The translations under genes and the position numbers were made by a program. Below the pieces are notes generated by a model, which saw only the letters and a program-made list of their open reading frames with translations, was not told where the DNA came from and did not search any database. From IMG/VR virus record IMGVR_UViG_3300046009_010204, positions 1 through 34,508 of that record: a stretch of 34,508 bases of DNA. The stretch is one strand, 5' to 3'. This DNA is from a virus. Each line of letters opens with the position of its first letter. The first letter of the stretch is position 1. Shown here piece by piece: positions 5,101-34,038 of the stretch.

Positions 5101-5107
5101 ATTTGAC

Positions 5108-5132
5108 AAAGGGCTCTTTTGAGCCCTTTTTT
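5108..5132 (+). terminator. intrinsic terminator after the 4206 gene
   Basis: A 9-bp stem AAAGGGCTC / GAGCCCTTT with a TTTT loop runs into TTT. It lies 17 nt after the stop codon. Together with the terminator at 4088 it isolates the 4206 gene as a single-gene unit. Confidence 0.93.
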
Positions 5133-5170
5133 GTTGATCATGCATAATACTCAATTAGGTAAATACTGGT

Positions 5171-26969: not shown

Positions 26970-27641
26970 ATGAAAAAGATTTTGATAGCCACACCATGTT
27001 TATATGGTAAAGTTGATGCATATTATGTTCACAGTTTATGTGAATCAATTAAATTGGGGTTGAAAGAAGATCTTGCGATTAACGCAGTCTTCCTTTCTAA
27101 TGAATCAATTCTCCCCATGGCAAGAAACGAATTGTTCAACCTTGCTTATACTCAAGGTTATGATCACATGGTATTCATCGATGATGATGAATACTGGAGT
27201 CCGAATATTCTCATTGAAATTCTTAAGTCTCCGAAGGATGTCGTTGCTGTTCCCGTTGTCAATAAGGGTGACAAAAAGATTGAATATAATGTCTACCTTT
27301 CGGAGAATAGTAAAGTTGATCCTACAGATGGATATATCAACGTTCAAAAAGTTGGAACTGGGTTTGTAAAGCTGTCTCGAAAAGTGTTAACTGACTTATG
27401 GCAATCCAATCCTGAAATATCTTTTCGAGGTAAAATTTTAAAAAACATTTGTGAATTTTCTGTTCGGAATGATTCATTCGTCGGTGAAGATATCACTTTA
27501 TCACGAAAGATAAAAGAGTTGGGTTATGAAATTTGGGTTAACCCCAAACACACTGTAGCTCATTTGGGTGTTAAAATGTACAAAGGTAACTTTGAAAAAG
27601 ATTATAATGAAAAACATTCTATTCTACAATCTGTGGCATAA
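26970..27641 (+). CDS. glycosyltransferase, GT-A fold (GT2-like)
   Basis: A 223-aa protein with the GT-A pattern: KKILIATPCLYGKVDAYYVH at the N-terminus for nucleotide-sugar binding, a metal-binding acidic motif FIDDDEYW (Asp71-Asp73), then GTGFVKLSRKVL and, near the C-terminus, GEDITLSRKIKELGYEIWVN and HLG, which resembles the acceptor/base region (ED...R) of GT2-type enzymes. It is short for GT2, so it is a minimal domain. It is cytoplasmic, with no membrane segments. It leads the four-gene glycosyltransferase run; donor and acceptor sugars cannot be read from the sequence. Confidence 0.8.
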   Translation: MKKILIATPCLYGKVDAYYVHSLCESIKLGLKEDLAINAVFLSNESILPMARNELFNLAYTQGYDHMVFIDDDEYWSPNILIEILKSPKDVVAVPVVNKGDKKIEYNVYLSENSKVDPTDGYINVQKVGTGFVKLSRKVLTDLWQSNPEISFRGKILKNICEFSVRNDSFVGEDITLSRKIKELGYEIWVNPKHTVAHLGVKMYKGNFEKDYNEKHSILQSVA

Positions 27642-28569
27642 TGGTGACGTTTTTTCAGGTCGAGGTTACCTTAAACACATTAAAGACTCGCTCCCTAACG
27701 TAAAGTTCGGCTACTATCATGTGTGCAATTCAAAGATCGTTACTGATCTTATTCGCACACAATTTAAGCCTGATTTGAAAAAATGGCAAGTCGAACAACT
27801 AAACTACAATAAGATTTTTGAAACAGATGAAACCATCTACATCAACACATGGGTGGGAGCGTACTTTTATCAAAATCAAGCGCGAATGGGCGACCACAAA
27901 GAGTTTGTGGCAAACCTCCCAGGAGAAGGTCACGCAAATTACTTGTCATTACATAAAATTTATACTTTTATAATTGACTATTTAAATAAGAACCATGGGT
28001 GTGATATAATTTTGAGTGACAATCCTTTACTTTATGTTCCAAAAGTAAATTGGAGTGTTTATGAAATCAAATCAGCTGATAACTTCCTGCAACAACATAA
28101 AGGTAAAAAACATTTGATTTGTAATGGAAAAGTTCGTAGTATGCAAAGCGGATTGGATAACCTTGCCCCTATAATAGAACATTTAGCTAAAACTTATTCG
28201 ACTGATACTTTCATTTGCACAGAAAAATTTGAAACAAAATTAAACAATGTATATTTTACCTCTGATATATTCAATATTGATTGTGACTTAAATGAGATTG
28301 CATACATGTCAACACATTGTGACACTATCATGGGAAAGAATTCGGGTCCTTTCATGTTTACTCATGTTAAAGAGAATATAAATAATGTTAACAAGATTTT
28401 TGTTGCGATGAGTCACAATGTGAGTGACTGCTATCCCCACCACATTAAAAATCTGCCTTGCAAATATTTCTTTACTGCAGCAGAGTCACCCAATCTTGTA
28501 GCAAACGCAATTGAAAGTGCAATAAAATTATCTCATGGATTAATTATAAACTTATCTAGATATGAATAA
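27607..28569 (+). CDS. probable GT-B-type glycosyltransferase or related protein
   Basis: I choose ATG 27607 (320 aa, MKNILFYNLWHNGDVFSGRG); the longer GTG-started frame from 27568 would only add 13 residues lying inside the previous gene. The N-terminal NLWHNGDVFSGRGYLKHIKD resembles the GDxxxxxxxLKxLK start of GT9-like enzymes, and the C-terminal half has IMGKNSGPFMFTHV, where GT9 enzymes carry a D/N-S-G-xxH/F nucleotide-sugar loop. Overall identity to any one family is not clear. It overlaps the previous gene by 35 nt and the next by 8 nt, so translation is coupled. Confidence 0.6.
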   Translation: MKNILFYNLWHNGDVFSGRGYLKHIKDSLPNVKFGYYHVCNSKIVTDLIRTQFKPDLKKWQVEQLNYNKIFETDETIYINTWVGAYFYQNQARMGDHKEFVANLPGEGHANYLSLHKIYTFIIDYLNKNHGCDIILSDNPLLYVPKVNWSVYEIKSADNFLQQHKGKKHLICNGKVRSMQSGLDNLAPIIEHLAKTYSTDTFICTEKFETKLNNVYFTSDIFNIDCDLNEIAYMSTHCDTIMGKNSGPFMFTHVKENINNVNKIFVAMSHNVSDCYPHHIKNLPCKYFFTAAESPNLVANAIESAIKLSHGLIINLSRYE

Positions 28570-29287
28570 AATTGATGTGATTATTCCCACAATGTGGCGA
28601 GATGAAAACTTCCCCGATGCTTTAAAAAAATATTGTGAGTGTAAGTCTATCAATAAGATCATTGTAATCGACAATGATTATGTTAAACGCCCAAAAGATT
28701 TAATCAAACACGATAAGTTGACCTTAGTTAATTATGGCAAAAATATTTATGTGAACCCTGCATGGAATGAAGGATACTATCGTTCAAACGCAGATATAAT
28801 CAATCTTTTAAACGATGATATATATGTTGAAGATGGTGTTTTTGAGTTTATGCAAAATTTAGATTTTTCCGAAATAGACATAATCGGAGTGCATTTAAAG
28901 GATGGTATCACCAACTATCACATCACCAACCATCCCGATAGAAAAGAAGAACTTATTCGCTTAAACGTAAATAAGTCACAACCTATTGGTGGGCAGAGTT
29001 TTGCTTATGGTGTGTGTATGTTTGTGAAAAGATCATCTTATCGTGTAATACCAAGTTTATATCAAGTGTGGTATGGGGATGATTATTTGATTCAACGATG
29101 CAAAAATATTTATACTTTAAAAACAAGCAAGATTCATGGTGTAGTTTCAAAAACTATTGTCAGTGAAGATATAAAACAAAGTGTTCAAAGAAGAATTGAT
29201 CTTGATACTGTAAACGTGTACCGATATAATCATTTCTTTAATGGAAGAAATTGGGAAATTGTACAAAACACAATGAGGAAATTATGA
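28562..29287 (+). CDS. glycosyltransferase, GT-A fold (GT2-like)
   Basis: A 241-aa protein beginning MNKIDVIIPTMWRDENFPDA, the beta1-loop of GT2 enzymes, with IIVIDND (about 33-39), NPAWNEGYYRSNADIINLLNDDIYV (acidic metal-binding Asn84-Asp85-Asp86) and, later, a GGQSFAYGVCMFVKRS segment like the acceptor-side region, then WYGDDYL, where GT2 members keep a catalytic ED/DD. It is soluble. It overlaps the previous gene by 8 nt and shares ATGA with the next. It probably adds one sugar in the same pathway as the neighbouring transferases. Confidence 0.78.
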   Translation: MNKIDVIIPTMWRDENFPDALKKYCECKSINKIIVIDNDYVKRPKDLIKHDKLTLVNYGKNIYVNPAWNEGYYRSNADIINLLNDDIYVEDGVFEFMQNLDFSEIDIIGVHLKDGITNYHITNHPDRKEELIRLNVNKSQPIGGQSFAYGVCMFVKRSSYRVIPSLYQVWYGDDYLIQRCKNIYTLKTSKIHGVVSKTIVSEDIKQSVQRRIDLDTVNVYRYNHFFNGRNWEIVQNTMRKL

Positions 29288-30183
29288 GTAAATATAGTAT
29301 TTTCCACCTTCAAGGGGGGATTGGTAAACATGTAGCAGCGACCGCTGTAGCAAGGTGCATTAAAAACAACTACCCAGATAGAAAACTAATTGTGGTTTGT
29401 GCTTACCCAGATTTGTTTATAAATCTAAACTTTGTCGAACGTGTATATACTTTGGGTAATACAAGTTATTTTTATCAAAGGTATGTTCAAGATAAAGATT
29501 CTATTTTGTTCCATCACGAACCCTACTTTACTACAAATCACATTCACAAAAGAAAAAGACTTATCCCTAACTGGTGTGAGATGTATGGATTGAAGTATAA
29601 TAATGAAATGCCAATTTTAAAGTTTAACAAGTTGCAATTTGACTTATCAAAAACTTTCTGGCAAAGAAACAAACCTCTAATGTTGATTCATACAAACGGG
29701 GGATTGATGGCAACTGACGCAAAACCATATGCATGGACACGTGACATGCCTCCCGATATTGCTCAGGATCTTATTAATCATTACAAAAATGATTATCACA
29801 TCTATCAGGTAACAAAATTTAACTCACCAAAACTTGATGGAGCAGAACACATTTTTGCTACACCTCAACAATCTTTAAGTTTGATTGAATTTTTTACCAT
29901 TTTACTCCATGCAAAAAAAAGAATTTTAATCGATTCAAGTTTGCAACACGCCGCGGCTGCAATGAATAAAAAATCAACCGTTTTATGGAATGGAACAAGC
30001 CCCAAGGTATTTGGTTATGATATGCATGATAATATTTGCACAGAAATTCCATACGACTTTAAACTTCCCGGAAGCTATCTATTTGACTTTGATTTTAACG
30101 GGAATGAACATGAATATCCTTTCACAGAAGATGTAAAATTGTTTGATGTAAATAAGATTATTGAATCTGTGGACAAGCAATAG
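29284..30183 (+). CDS. glycosyltransferase family 9 (heptosyltransferase)-like protein
   Basis: The start is set at ATG 29284 (299 aa), which has GAGGAAATT upstream and an ATGA overlap; a frame from 29251 would lie inside the previous gene. The N-terminus SIFHLQGGIGKHVAATAVAR resembles the Gly-rich loop of GT-B glycosyltransferases, followed by a Rossmann strand (RKLIVVCAYPDLFIN). The C-terminal half has RILIDSSLQHAAAAMNKKST and VLWNGTSPKVFGY, a close pattern to the D-S/T-x-x-x-H-x-A-A-A-x...GxTSP donor-binding loop of GT9. It is the fourth enzyme of the cassette. Confidence 0.75.
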   Translation: MSKYSIFHLQGGIGKHVAATAVARCIKNNYPDRKLIVVCAYPDLFINLNFVERVYTLGNTSYFYQRYVQDKDSILFHHEPYFTTNHIHKRKRLIPNWCEMYGLKYNNEMPILKFNKLQFDLSKTFWQRNKPLMLIHTNGGLMATDAKPYAWTRDMPPDIAQDLINHYKNDYHIYQVTKFNSPKLDGAEHIFATPQQSLSLIEFFTILLHAKKRILIDSSLQHAAAAMNKKSTVLWNGTSPKVFGYDMHDNICTEIPYDFKLPGSYLFDFDFNGNEHEYPFTEDVKLFDVNKIIESVDKQ

Positions 30184-30192
30184 GAGATTATT

Positions 30193-31125
30193 ATGGCTAA
30201 TGAACCCCCAAAACAAATTGAACCAAAATCTTATTACTTTATGGCAGGACTGCCTCGAGCGGGTAGCACTCTATTATCTGCTATTTTAAATCAAAATCCA
30301 CGAATCTATTCCGGACCTAGCTCGCCTGTAGTGCCTACGATGCTTGCTCTTGAAACATCTTTGGCACAAGATGAATTGTTTTTAGCGTATCCAAAACCAC
30401 AAATTGCTGCACAAATGATTGCAAACATTTTGCCACAATTTTATATGGATGTTGACAAACCCGTAATCATTGATAAAAACAGATCATGGGTTAATCGGTT
30501 ACATTATATTTCAGGATACTTTGGCATTCAGCCAAAAGTTATTTGCCCTGTTAGAAGTATTGATGAAATCCTTGCATCGTTCATCGCAATGCAAAGAAGA
30601 AATCTTCAAAAAGTTGATAGCGTAAAACTTAATTTTCTTGATGAAATGCTTGTTAAATCAAATCTCCCACTAACAGATGATAATCGATGTGAGCTATTAG
30701 CAAGCCCCATGGGCATTTTAGGTCAAAGTTATGAGGGGTTAAAGCAATGCATCATGCAAGGACAACAAAGGGCTTTACACTTTGTCGAATATGATGATTT
30801 ACTTGATAATCCACAAGATACCATGGAAAAAATTTACGACTTTCTTGAAGAGGACTACTTCAAACATGACTTTGCAAACCTGGTAAATATTCACCAAGAA
30901 AACGATGGTCAAGTATATGGAATGGCAGACATGCATGATGTTCGTACAACTTTGGGTCGTCGTGGTATAAATCCTGCTGAAATTTTATCTGAAACAATTA
31001 TAAATAAATGTAAGAACGCTGAATTTTGGCGTACAATGAATGAAGAAATTCCTCAAGAAGAATTTCTTCCAGATAATGAACTCCCCATAACACAAGAAAA
31101 TCCTTCATTTATAATAGGAGCTTAA
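30193..31125 (+). CDS. sulfotransferase (PAPS-dependent)
   Basis: A 310-aa enzyme that should move sulfate from PAPS to a hydroxyl, likely on a glycan. The 5'-phosphosulfate loop FMAGLPRAGSTLLSAIL is textbook (Pro21-Leu28), with the 3'-phosphate motif at CPVRSIDEILASF (Arg121 to Ser129) and the FVEYDDLLDNPQDTMEKIYDFL segment typical of the family (Sulfotransfer_3/PF13469 type). The C-terminus (LPITQENPSFIIGA) appears complete. It has a clear ribosome site (TAGGAGA) and comes between glycosyltransferases and the APS-kinase-like fusion, which could supply PAPS. A stand-alone sulfotransferase of this type is known from marine T4-like phages. Confidence 0.88.
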   Translation: MANEPPKQIEPKSYYFMAGLPRAGSTLLSAILNQNPRIYSGPSSPVVPTMLALETSLAQDELFLAYPKPQIAAQMIANILPQFYMDVDKPVIIDKNRSWVNRLHYISGYFGIQPKVICPVRSIDEILASFIAMQRRNLQKVDSVKLNFLDEMLVKSNLPLTDDNRCELLASPMGILGQSYEGLKQCIMQGQQRALHFVEYDDLLDNPQDTMEKIYDFLEEDYFKHDFANLVNIHQENDGQVYGMADMHDVRTTLGRRGINPAEILSETIINKCKNAEFWRTMNEEIPQEEFLPDNELPITQENPSFIIGA

Positions 31126-31126
31126 A

Positions 31127-31384
31127 ATGCTTGAACAACAACTAACAGCACAGCAAAGAGTAGATGGAACAGTACGAGCAGCACGTGACAGCGTTTGGGT
31201 TGTTACAAATGAACTTCAAAAGAAAGCTGACACAGGAGTGCTTTCAGAAGAAGGTCGCGGAAATATTGAACGCAACGTTGCTCATTTAGAAATCGTTATG
31301 TCAGATCCACAAGTTGTTGAACTTGGGGGCGATCTATCCGATCTTACAGCAGCAATTACTAATGGAAAGGCAGCGTTGGCTTAA
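31127..31384 (+). CDS. small 85-aa protein of unknown function
   Basis: I do not recognise it. It is a soluble, helical, mildly acidic protein (MLEQQLTAQQRVDGTVRAAR at the start, DLSDLTAAITNGKAALA at the end). It has a good ribosome site (TAGGAG) and lies 1 nt after the sulfotransferase gene and 1 nt before the kinase fusion gene, so it is co-translated with the sulfate enzymes. It might be a partner of either enzyme, or unrelated. Confidence 0.6.
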   Translation: MLEQQLTAQQRVDGTVRAARDSVWVVTNELQKKADTGVLSEEGRGNIERNVAHLEIVMSDPQVVELGGDLSDLTAAITNGKAALA

Positions 31385-31385
31385 T

Positions 31386-32222
31386 ATGCAAAAAATTCTT
31401 ATTATGGGTCTTCCTGGGGCAGGAAAGACATACTTTGCAGAAAGATTAAAAATTTACCTTGAGAAGCACGGAAAAAGGGATCTATCATCTGCACCTGATA
31501 CACCCTTTCAAAACCTAAACGCTCGAGTAAAGTGGTTTAATGCTGACGAAGTACGAAGAAAGTATAATGATTGGGATTTCACCACTGAAGGAAGAATTCG
31601 TCAATCTATTCGAATGCTTGAATTCGCTCTTTCTTGTAATGAAGAATATGTAATTTGCGATTTTGTAGCGCCTCTTGTAGAGATGCGAAACAACTTTAAA
31701 GCAGATTGGACAATCTGGATGGATACCATTGCAGAAGGTAGATTTGATGACACAAATAAGGCATTTATACCACCAGAACAGTATGATTTTCGTATAACAG
31801 AACAAAATGCTGAAGCATGGGTTCCTTATGTGGGTGAAAGAATTGTGCAAAATCTTCGTCGTCCAAGATTTGATTGGCAAAAAGAAAGCGTTCAAATGTT
31901 GGGCCGATGGCAACCTTGGCATGCAGGTCATCGTGCACTATTCGAAAGAGCTCTTGCTAAAACGGGTCAAGTTTGTATTATGATTCGTGATTGTCAGGGG
32001 TGGAATGATAGTAATCCCTTTGCAATTCAGCAAGTTAAAAACTTTATTCGCAGAGATCTAGACCCTCATTATCAAGGTCAGTATGAGATTATTGCAGTCC
32101 CCAACATTGTAAATATAACGTATGGTCGAGATGTGGGATATAAGATAGAGCAAGAAGTTTTTGATGATAATATACACTCAATTAGTGCCACAAAAATACG
32201 TAAAACAATGGGCCTGAAGTAG
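31386..32222 (+). CDS. bifunctional P-loop kinase (APS-kinase-like) fused to HxGH nucleotidylyltransferase
   Basis: The start is ATG 31386 (278 aa); a frame from 31314 runs through the previous gene. The N-terminal half is a small-molecule kinase: Walker A GLPGAGKT (8-15), KWFNADEVRRKYNDWDF, and WTIWMDTIAEGRFDDTNKAF, the last typical of phage proteins labelled adenylylsulfate kinase. The C-terminal half is an HxGH nucleotidylyltransferase (cytidylyltransferase-like fold): GRWQPWHAGH (173-182) and ISATKIR (266-272), the two nucleotide-binding motifs; the first resembles NadM-type NMN adenylyltransferases more than ATP sulfurylase. It could make PAPS for the sulfotransferase, or belong to NAD or sugar-nucleotide metabolism. 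The ribosome site is poor, so translation is probably coupled. Confidence 0.75.
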   Translation: MQKILIMGLPGAGKTYFAERLKIYLEKHGKRDLSSAPDTPFQNLNARVKWFNADEVRRKYNDWDFTTEGRIRQSIRMLEFALSCNEEYVICDFVAPLVEMRNNFKADWTIWMDTIAEGRFDDTNKAFIPPEQYDFRITEQNAEAWVPYVGERIVQNLRRPRFDWQKESVQMLGRWQPWHAGHRALFERALAKTGQVCIMIRDCQGWNDSNPFAIQQVKNFIRRDLDPHYQGQYEIIAVPNIVNITYGRDVGYKIEQEVFDDNIHSISATKIRKTMGLK

Positions 32223-32228
32223 TAACTT

Positions 32229-32266
32229 ACAGTCCTTATAAATATTCAGAAACTTATAGGGACTGT
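32229..32266 (+). promoter_or_regulatory. 13-bp hairpin enclosing the gp13 late promoter and ribosome site
   Basis: ACAGTCCTTATAA (32229-32241) pairs with TTATAGGGACTGT (32254-32266): twelve Watson-Crick pairs and one G-U. The 12-nt loop contains the predicted late start (about 32250). The right arm carries AGGGA, the ribosome site of gp13, and ends one base before its ATG. Read-through RNA should hide this site; RNA begun at the late promoter lacks the left arm and should not. This is the same layout as in T4 genes e and soc. Confidence 0.75.
32237..32244 (+). promoter_or_regulatory. late promoter of gp13
   Basis: TATAAATA is an exact match to the T4 late promoter consensus, in the short spacer before a neck gene that should be expressed late. 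The predicted start is near 32250, with an 18-nt leader. Confidence 0.65.
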
Positions 32267-32267
32267 T

Positions 32268-33227
32268 ATGGCTTCTGTATCATCTAGACAAGAATTAATA
32301 GATTATTGCTTGCGTCGACTAGGTCACCCCGTTATTGAAATTAACGTTGATGATGACCAGATAGAAGATAGAATAGATGATGCTTTACAATTCTATCGAG
32401 AATATCACTTCGATGCTGTGGAAGAAGTTTATCTGAAGGCACAGATTACTTCCTCAAACTTAATTTTAACTACCAATACTGCAAATGCATTTGTCGGTGG
32501 TGAAAAAATTACGGGTCAAACTTCTGGTGTTTTAACAACAGTTGTCTCTACACCTCTCTCAGGAAACTTAATTCAAGTTTACAAGACAACTCAAGACGTA
32601 GATTTCACAGCAGGAGAAACAGTAATTGCTGATTCTGGTGCAACAGGTGTTGTCACTTCCTTTTCAAAGGGTACATACGATAATCGTTACTTCCCTATTT
32701 CTGATGCAGTGTATGGAATCAAGAAAGTTTTACCTTTCTATAACCGAACATCAGGCATAAACTTATTTGATATTCGGTATCAAATGTTGGTTCAAGATTT
32801 GTATAATCTTATGTCAGTAGACATGATTCATTATACAATGATTCAGAATCACCTTCAAATGATTAATATGCTTCTTGTTGGAGAAAAACCTTTCCGCTAT
32901 AATCGACATATGAATAAATTGTTTGTTGATATGGATTGGGAAAAAGACGCAGGATTGGGTGATTACTTAATTGTTAATGCCTTTAGAATTCTAGATCCAA
33001 GCACGTATACTGATGTTTATAATGATATGTTCCTTAAAAGATATGCAACAGCTCTTTTGAAACGACAGTGGGGAGAGAACCTAAAGAAATTTGAAGGTGT
33101 TCAGTTACCCGGCGGTGTCACTTTGAATGGACAAAAAATCTTCGAAGAGGCTTTAGAAGAGATACAAAAAATTGAAGATGAAGTTCAGTCAAGATTTGAA
33201 TTGCCTACTGACTTTTTTGTTGGTTAA
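32268..33227 (+). CDS. 13: neck protein gp13-like
   Basis: A 319-aa head-completion/neck protein (T4 gp13 is 309 aa). The start (SSRQELIDYCLRRLGHPVIE and INVDDDQIEDRIDDALQFYR) is a hallmark of gp13 in marine T4-like phages. A beta insert (about residues 65-140) carries two 'GGEKITGQTSGV' and 'AGETVIADSGATGV' hairpins, common in phage structural proteins; the helical remainder (LVQDLYNLMSVDMIHYTMI, FVDMDWEKDAGLGDYLIVNAF, LKRQWGENLKKFEGVQLPGG) matches the family and it ends LPTDFFVG. With gp14 it closes the DNA-filled head and forms the tail attachment site. Confidence 0.9.
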   Translation: MASVSSRQELIDYCLRRLGHPVIEINVDDDQIEDRIDDALQFYREYHFDAVEEVYLKAQITSSNLILTTNTANAFVGGEKITGQTSGVLTTVVSTPLSGNLIQVYKTTQDVDFTAGETVIADSGATGVVTSFSKGTYDNRYFPISDAVYGIKKVLPFYNRTSGINLFDIRYQMLVQDLYNLMSVDMIHYTMIQNHLQMINMLLVGEKPFRYNRHMNKLFVDMDWEKDAGLGDYLIVNAFRILDPSTYTDVYNDMFLKRYATALLKRQWGENLKKFEGVQLPGGVTLNGQKIFEEALEEIQKIEDEVQSRFELPTDFFVG

Positions 33228-33291: not shown

Positions 33292-34038
33292 ATGCCAACA
33301 AATTTCTATTTTCAAAGTGGAATACCGATGGGGAAGCGATCAGAGTCGCTTCTTCATGAAGATCTTATTATTGAATGTTTAAAAATTTATGGATTTGATT
33401 GTTATTATATTCCGCGTGTTGCTGTTAACCGTGATTTAATTTTAAATGAAGACCCCACAAATAAGTATGAAGATGCGTTTCCATTAGAAGCTTATTTGGA
33501 GAATACTACAGGGTTTGGAGGTACAGATCTTTTAAGTAAGTTCGGTGTAGAAATACAAGATACCGCTACTTTTATTATAGCTCGTAGAAGATGGGAACAA
33601 TCAGTCGGTAGGAAGAAAGCTAGTGTTTTAGTGAATCGACCTGCAGAGGGGGATTTATTATATTTTCCTGTGACGAAATCATTTTTCGAAATTAAATATG
33701 TTGAAGTAAAAGATCCATTCTTTCAGGTGGGTAAACTTTATGTTTATAAACTTGAGTGTGAACTATTTCAATATAGTCATGAAAATATTAACACTGAAAT
33801 TCGAGAGATTGATGAAATCGAAGATAAGATTAATCAGGGGGTCGATGTTTTTGCATTAGAATTAGAAGATAGCACACCTTTTCTTTTGGAAACAGACAGA
33901 CCATCTGAGCTTCTCATTGAAACATTTGACATAAACACTACCGACAAAAATGCTCAAAATGATGATTTTGATACTAACATATCTGATATTCTTGATTTTA
34001 CAGAGCGCAACCCTTTTGGTGAGGTATATACACGATAA
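33292..34038 (+). CDS. 14: neck protein gp14-like
   Basis: A 248-aa neck protein (T4 gp14 is 256 aa) that partners gp13. Conserved features include MPTNFYFQSG, SESLLHEDLIIECLKIYGFD, YYIPRV, EAYLENTTGFGG and FIIARRRWEQSVG, followed by the FPVTKSFFEIKYVEVKDPFF beta core. A more acidic segment (about residues 190-235) precedes a C-terminal 'ERNPFGE' end. It lies 64 nt after gp13 with only a poor ribosome site (AAGATAAG); the spacer has no convincing late box (ATTAAATA at 33265 matches 6 of 8). gp14 always accompanies gp13, which supports the call. Confidence 0.9.
   Translation: MPTNFYFQSGIPMGKRSESLLHEDLIIECLKIYGFDCYYIPRVAVNRDLILNEDPTNKYEDAFPLEAYLENTTGFGGTDLLSKFGVEIQDTATFIIARRRWEQSVGRKKASVLVNRPAEGDLLYFPVTKSFFEIKYVEVKDPFFQVGKLYVYKLECELFQYSHENINTEIREIDEIEDKINQGVDVFALELEDSTPFLLETDRPSELLIETFDINTTDKNAQNDDFDTNISDILDFTERNPFGEVYTR

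Follow-up and report, generated by a model that had tools for sequence, protein, structure and literature searches.

In several genes of phage T4 (e, soc, and 49), the late promoter lies within or beside an RNA helix, and this helix hides the Shine-Dalgarno sequence (SD) in longer early RNAs (PMC3014915). Hairpins have also been described for homing endonuclease genes, namely, I-TevI, I-TevII, I-TevIII, segB, and Aeh1 mobE (PMC2988022). For marine T4-like phages, NATAAATA has been reported as the late promoter (PMC2984593). Pelagimyophages have a hypervariable host-recognition cluster whose end lies close to the neck genes (PMC7029224). Prediction of late promoters was unsuccessful in that work, and no promoter or RNA switch at the island border was found described in it.

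The window analyzed here, the whole 34,508-nt stretch of DNA from a T4-like aquatic phage, has a variable fibre/sugar island at the same place in the genome, before the neck genes. Head genes are followed by fibre genes (5.7-26.9 kb), a sugar/sulfo module (27-32.2 kb), gp13, and gp14, and a hairpin around a late promoter lies between the module and gp13. The window itself is a fragment; a near-identical 82.8-kb record (G003) carries the identical hairpin, and homologues of gp55 (the late sigma) and gp45 (the clamp) are present in G003, G014, and G015. The nearest cultured phages by gp13 are the Pelagibacter phages Mosig and HTVC008M, at 42-43% identity.

Layout of the hairpin at the gp13 leader

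The features of the region are as follows.

31362..32222, + strand: gene for a P-loop kinase plus nucleotidyltransferase (phrog_10255; NMN-adenylyltransferase-like C-terminal domain)
32229..32241, + strand: left (anti-SD) arm, ACAGTCCTTATAA; overlaps the late promoter and is predicted to be absent from late transcripts
32237..32244, + strand: late promoter box, exact T4 type, TATAAATA
32242-32253: hairpin loop, between both arms
32250, + strand: predicted late transcript start (+1), in the hairpin loop, from T4 late geometry applied to the sequence
32254..32266, + strand: right arm, TTATAGGGACTGT; holds the SD
32258..32262, + strand: SD of gp13, AGGGA; paired in read-through RNA by folding
32268..33227, + strand: gp13 neck gene (head-tail adaptor Ad2, phrog_211; PHROGs, E 1.1e-43)
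33292..34038, + strand: gp14 neck gene (PHROGs; PF11649 T4_neck-protein)

The two arms form 13 pairs, 12 Watson-Crick and one G-U (U32236-G32259), which confirms the inverted repeat around an exact late box described in an earlier, sequence-only reading of this DNA. That reading was also right to place AGGGA in the right arm but had it end one base before the ATG; the AGGGA ends five bases before the ATG at 32268, and it is the arm that ends one base before. The box is the sole exact one in the window at a proper distance before an SD-bearing gene. Late transcription of the T4 type starts six bases past the box, and with a start at the predicted position, 32250, the whole left arm would be missing from late RNA. 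The gp13 AUG lies just beyond the main stem. The upstream gene ends 45 nt before this start codon, and no intrinsic terminator was found in the 45-nt gap.

As for T4 e, soc, and 49, the box lies in or beside the 5′ arm and the SD in the 3′ arm, and late RNA is predicted to lack the 5′ arm. The hairpin of I-TevII (CCTCGTAT..ATACGAGG around TATAAATA) has almost the same geometry. The setting is different. The three T4 genes are lysis, capsid-accessory, and recombination genes whose SD is hidden in early RNA, whereas here an essential neck gene stands behind fibre and sugar/sulfo genes. The homing endonuclease hairpins restrain a mobile gene within a host gene, whereas gp13 is a core virion gene. 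The carriers found here, unlike T4, are uncultured phages related to Kyanoviridae.

The non-structural module upstream of gp13 (26970-32222) encodes glycosyltransferase-like proteins, a sulfotransferase (30193-31125, PF13469), and the kinase-nucleotidyltransferase fusion (31362-32222), which has APS-kinase-like and NMN-adenylyltransferase-like parts; the module possibly serves surface sulfation or sugar modification. The fusion gene had 388 confirmed matches in viral contigs (L199-L278) and is followed there by many different genes, gp13 being just one of them. Farther upstream, a strong intrinsic terminator (5103-5137) marks the end of the block of head genes, ahead of the fibre genes. On the other side, gp14 is presumably cotranscribed with gp13. 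The 64-nt gap between the two has no obvious SD before 33292, and a strong stem of 13 pairs with a 4-nt loop (33328-33357; -16.4 kcal/mol) lies inside the start of gp14.

Predicted folding of read-through and late RNA

The stem was predicted to fold at -14.9 kcal/mol (z, -4.8), an energy matched by 0 of 200 shuffles, and to fold at 15°C as well. When the region was folded with and without the left arm, a check proposed in the sequence-only reading, the SD was almost fully paired in read-through RNA and largely free in RNA starting at about 32250, with mean unpaired probabilities of 0.00 and 0.70, respectively. With about 50 nt of additional coding sequence, the values per SD base were about 0.001 in read-through RNA and 0.2 to 0.7 in late RNA, where some weak local structure persists around the SD. 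Neither its length nor its energy makes such a stem rare in a window of this size: a shuffled AT-rich 34-kb window holds about two stems of at least 13 bp and zero to two stems at or below -14.9 kcal/mol by chance. It is the position of the stem at the gp13 leader that is unusual, and SD hiding as good as that seen here had a P value of about 0.004 against shuffled left flanks.

The element is likely a cis-acting RNA switch built into the late promoter, by which the gp13 SD would be buried in read-through RNA and free in late RNA. Polymerase arriving from the upstream fibre and sugar/sulfo genes would copy both arms, which would pair and bury the SD, and little or no gp13 would be made from such RNA. 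Polymerase that initiates from the late box (at about 32250) would omit the left arm, and the free SD would allow translation of gp13 and then of gp14. This predicted behavior follows from the anatomy of the site and matches the experimentally proven T4 cases. The layout, predicted folds, covariation, and recurrence were computed; the start point, the read-through RNA, and the translational block are what we infer.

Covariation of the arms in near relatives

Both gp13 and the hairpin itself served as queries in scans of viral contigs; a search of genome contigs for the hairpin gave no match. The relatives recovered comprise near copies of the window (L083-L085) and a graded series (L082/L106, L105, L001/L109, L107, L108, L110, L112-L114, and L116-L117). 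A stem hiding the SD is present in all of them, with the SD unpaired at 0.03 or less in read-through RNA and at 0.68 to 0.95 in late RNA by folding, and it is maintained down to about 71% gp13 identity.

The sequence-only reading had predicted paired arms and compensatory changes in related phages and had staked its claim on them. Both were found: nine distinct relatives retain the stem, with 90.6% of cells paired, and two-sided compensatory changes occur at five pairs, in ten cells (nine distinct sequences). L107, for example, has CGCCC/GGGCG and L116 has TCTCC/GGAGA in place of AGTCC/GGACT. This level of covariation was reached by 0 of 500 shuffles, and slid registers paired at 42 to 57%, in an alignment that leans towards structure, with the arms anchored on the box and SD, the loops removed, and the left arm ungapped against the box. 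The arms were re-anchored in this way because MAFFT misaligned L116. None of the varying pairs falls within the box or the SD core, so conservation of these two elements alone does not explain the pattern. The covariation points to selection on pairing.

Recurrence at gp13 in distant lineages

The kinase-nucleotidyltransferase gene and the gp13 gene of L214 served as starting points for finding further gp13 leaders. The same layout with unrelated arms was found in L214/L279/L283, in L326 and twelve near copies, in L329/L330, in L356/L357/L358, in L344, and in L072. Representative arms (left..right) are given below.

L214 and L279: GAATTTCCTCCA..TGGAGGAAATTC
L326: GTTTTCTCATATTA..TAATATGGGAAAAC
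L329: GAAGATTCCTTGTTGT..ACAACAAGGAATCTTC
L356: ATCTCCTTTT..AAAAGGAGAT
L072: CTTTAGTTTTCTTA..GTAAGAGAACTAAAG

Leaders were scored as SD hiding if the SD was unpaired at less than 0.1 with an energy of -10 or below and was free in late RNA. Among the 69 distinct gp13 leaders that carry an exact box, 21 hid the SD by these measures, against an expectation of 3.3 ± 1.4 (maximum, 6) when left flanks were permuted between loci (60 permutations). Outside T4, 1 of 35 other late leaders hid its SD, in a sample that is small and biased to gp13 neighbours because the loci were fetched around gp13. Within single genomes (G014, G015, G003, and G001), gp13 also stands out among genes. The script that found the gp13 hairpins recovers the known T4 cases e and I-TevII as well. 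On the gp13 tree, the hairpin requires nine changes, of which at least seven are forced by supported branches.

The sequence-only reading had cited T4 e, soc, and other genes as precedents, and the design is indeed documented for e, soc, 49, and I-TevI (PMC3014915). Its suggestion that the design is undescribed outside close relatives of T4 was too strong, in view of the published Aeh1 mobE hairpin (PMC2988022) and the many distant T4-like lineages found here. Among searchable papers, none was found that brings together a neck protein, a late promoter, and a hairpin. Although the design itself is not new, these papers do not appear to describe it, or its repeated evolution, at a neck gene. The gene, an essential neck gene, and the phage group are new for the design, and so are the recurrence and the evidence from covariation. 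The findings extend a mechanism known from a few genes of T4 and Aeh1 to an essential virion gene in many T4-like phages that have not been cultured, with strong covariation in its support.

The hairpin is absent from 48 of the 69 gp13 late leaders and is absent too where gp13 has no box of its own, and it is therefore dispensable in many phages. In gp13 genes lacking a box, the preceding gene was a fibre or structural gene in 28 of 28 judgeable cases, usually only a few bases away. Among named phages, gp13 of P-SSM2, Melnitz, Cr30, phiM12, and phiN3 follows fibre or other genes tightly and lacks both the box and the hairpin, and DLP6 and X1 have neither an exact box nor a comparable stem at gp13. 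Mosig has a box at gp13 with only weak pairing; in HTVC008M, genes on the opposite strand lie upstream of gp13, and no such stem was found. A cyanophage-like group (L008, L135-L158, and L067) has the box followed by GTCC(C/T/G)AAAGAGGAC, a recurring stem of four pairs with its left half upstream of the expected start. This tiny GTCC..GGAC stem was too weak to be counted as the same device.

Insulation and timing as possible uses of the proposed switch

The data agree at least as well with insulation, by which the conserved neck/tail operon would be shielded from the hypervariable host-recognition island, as with timing. We favor insulation, which suits both the position of the hairpin where an exchangeable island ends and its repeated gains at one gene. 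Our tentative proposal is a repeatedly evolved insulator, in which an anti-SD hairpin around the late promoter, with several independent origins at the border between island and neck operon, would leave gp13-gp14 output to be set only by that promoter. The output of gp13 would be tied to its own late promoter regardless of the sequence upstream. If correct, the proposal explains how large receptor-recognition islands are exchanged without disturbing core structural gene expression, and it supplies a sequence signature to seek at other module borders.

The same switch might instead serve timing, following the logic of T4 gene e, with early or middle genes upstream and gp13 silent until late, a use that is possible but that we regard with some doubt. 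The genes immediately upstream argue for it. In the hairpin group the preceding gene is mostly non-structural (kinase-nucleotidyltransferase, peptidase, or 2OG-Fe oxygenase) or a small gene of unknown function. The upstream neighbour was non-structural in 9 of 11 classed hairpin phages versus 11 of 62 phages without the hairpin (Fisher P = 7e-5), a count that leaves out eight hairpin cases of unknown class and uses classes partly judged by eye. Two pairs of close gp13 sisters agree: L072 has the hairpin and a non-fibre gene upstream, while L077 has no hairpin and a fibre gene; L116 has the hairpin behind a sulfotransferase and a small gene, while L120 has no hairpin and a fibre assembly gene. 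After phylogenetic pairing, however, the association was not significant (three to seven pairs, underpowered), and fibre genes lie farther upstream. L326 and its twelve near copies depart from the link with non-structural genes: the stem around their gp13 late box, of fourteen pairs, comes right behind a fibre-like gene.

Promoter predictions also weigh against timing. No conserved sigma-70-type promoter was found for the sugar/sulfo module upstream of gp13. A site at 29202 matching the sigma-70 consensus at 11 of 12 positions was considered as a source of early read-through and rejected, as it is lost in G001, which is 95% identical; in the relative G014, consensus sigma-70 promoters mark a different region. 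The delay of neck completion suggested in the sequence-only reading is a conjecture; the upstream 5 to 32 kb consist mostly of tail fibre genes, normally late, followed by a sugar/sulfo module without a convincing early promoter.

Other accounts of the inverted repeat

Template switching at quasi-palindromes is a known mutational process. It perfects repeats and could mimic compensation without selection, and five or more near-perfect repeats were present. As the sole origin of the pattern it is highly unlikely, for it accounts neither for the repeated placement over the late box and SD of one gene, nor for upkeep across the relatives to the gp13 divergence given above, nor for the rarity of such stems at other late promoters. 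Template switching may be the way in which the arms arise.

A protein operator over the promoter, or a DNA element such as a cruciform, is more improbable still as an alternative to RNA. The repeat does overlap the promoter, and I-TevI is known to repress its own late promoter (PMC2988022). The arm letters, however, change freely while pairing is kept and are wholly different between lineages, which argues against a protein that reads sequence, and the right arm always falls on the SD. Least probable of all is a transcription terminator or a processing or protection site for the upstream mRNA: the hairpin directly follows the upstream stop codon, but no U tract follows the stem, no terminator was called at the hairpin, and the position of the right arm on the SD would be left unexplained.

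Two further arrangements were observed at late boxes. In T4, the late-box flanks of the divergent genes 53 and 4 (L101 27349 (+) and 27371 (-); T4 77.35 kb) complement each other's SD, and each leader is predicted to hide its own SD. In L002, L003, L095:1887, and L101:37187 (T4 gene 9), the late box immediately follows an intrinsic terminator, and the pyrimidine tail of this terminator can pair with the following gene's SD; such a tail is a possible simple route to an anti-SD arm.
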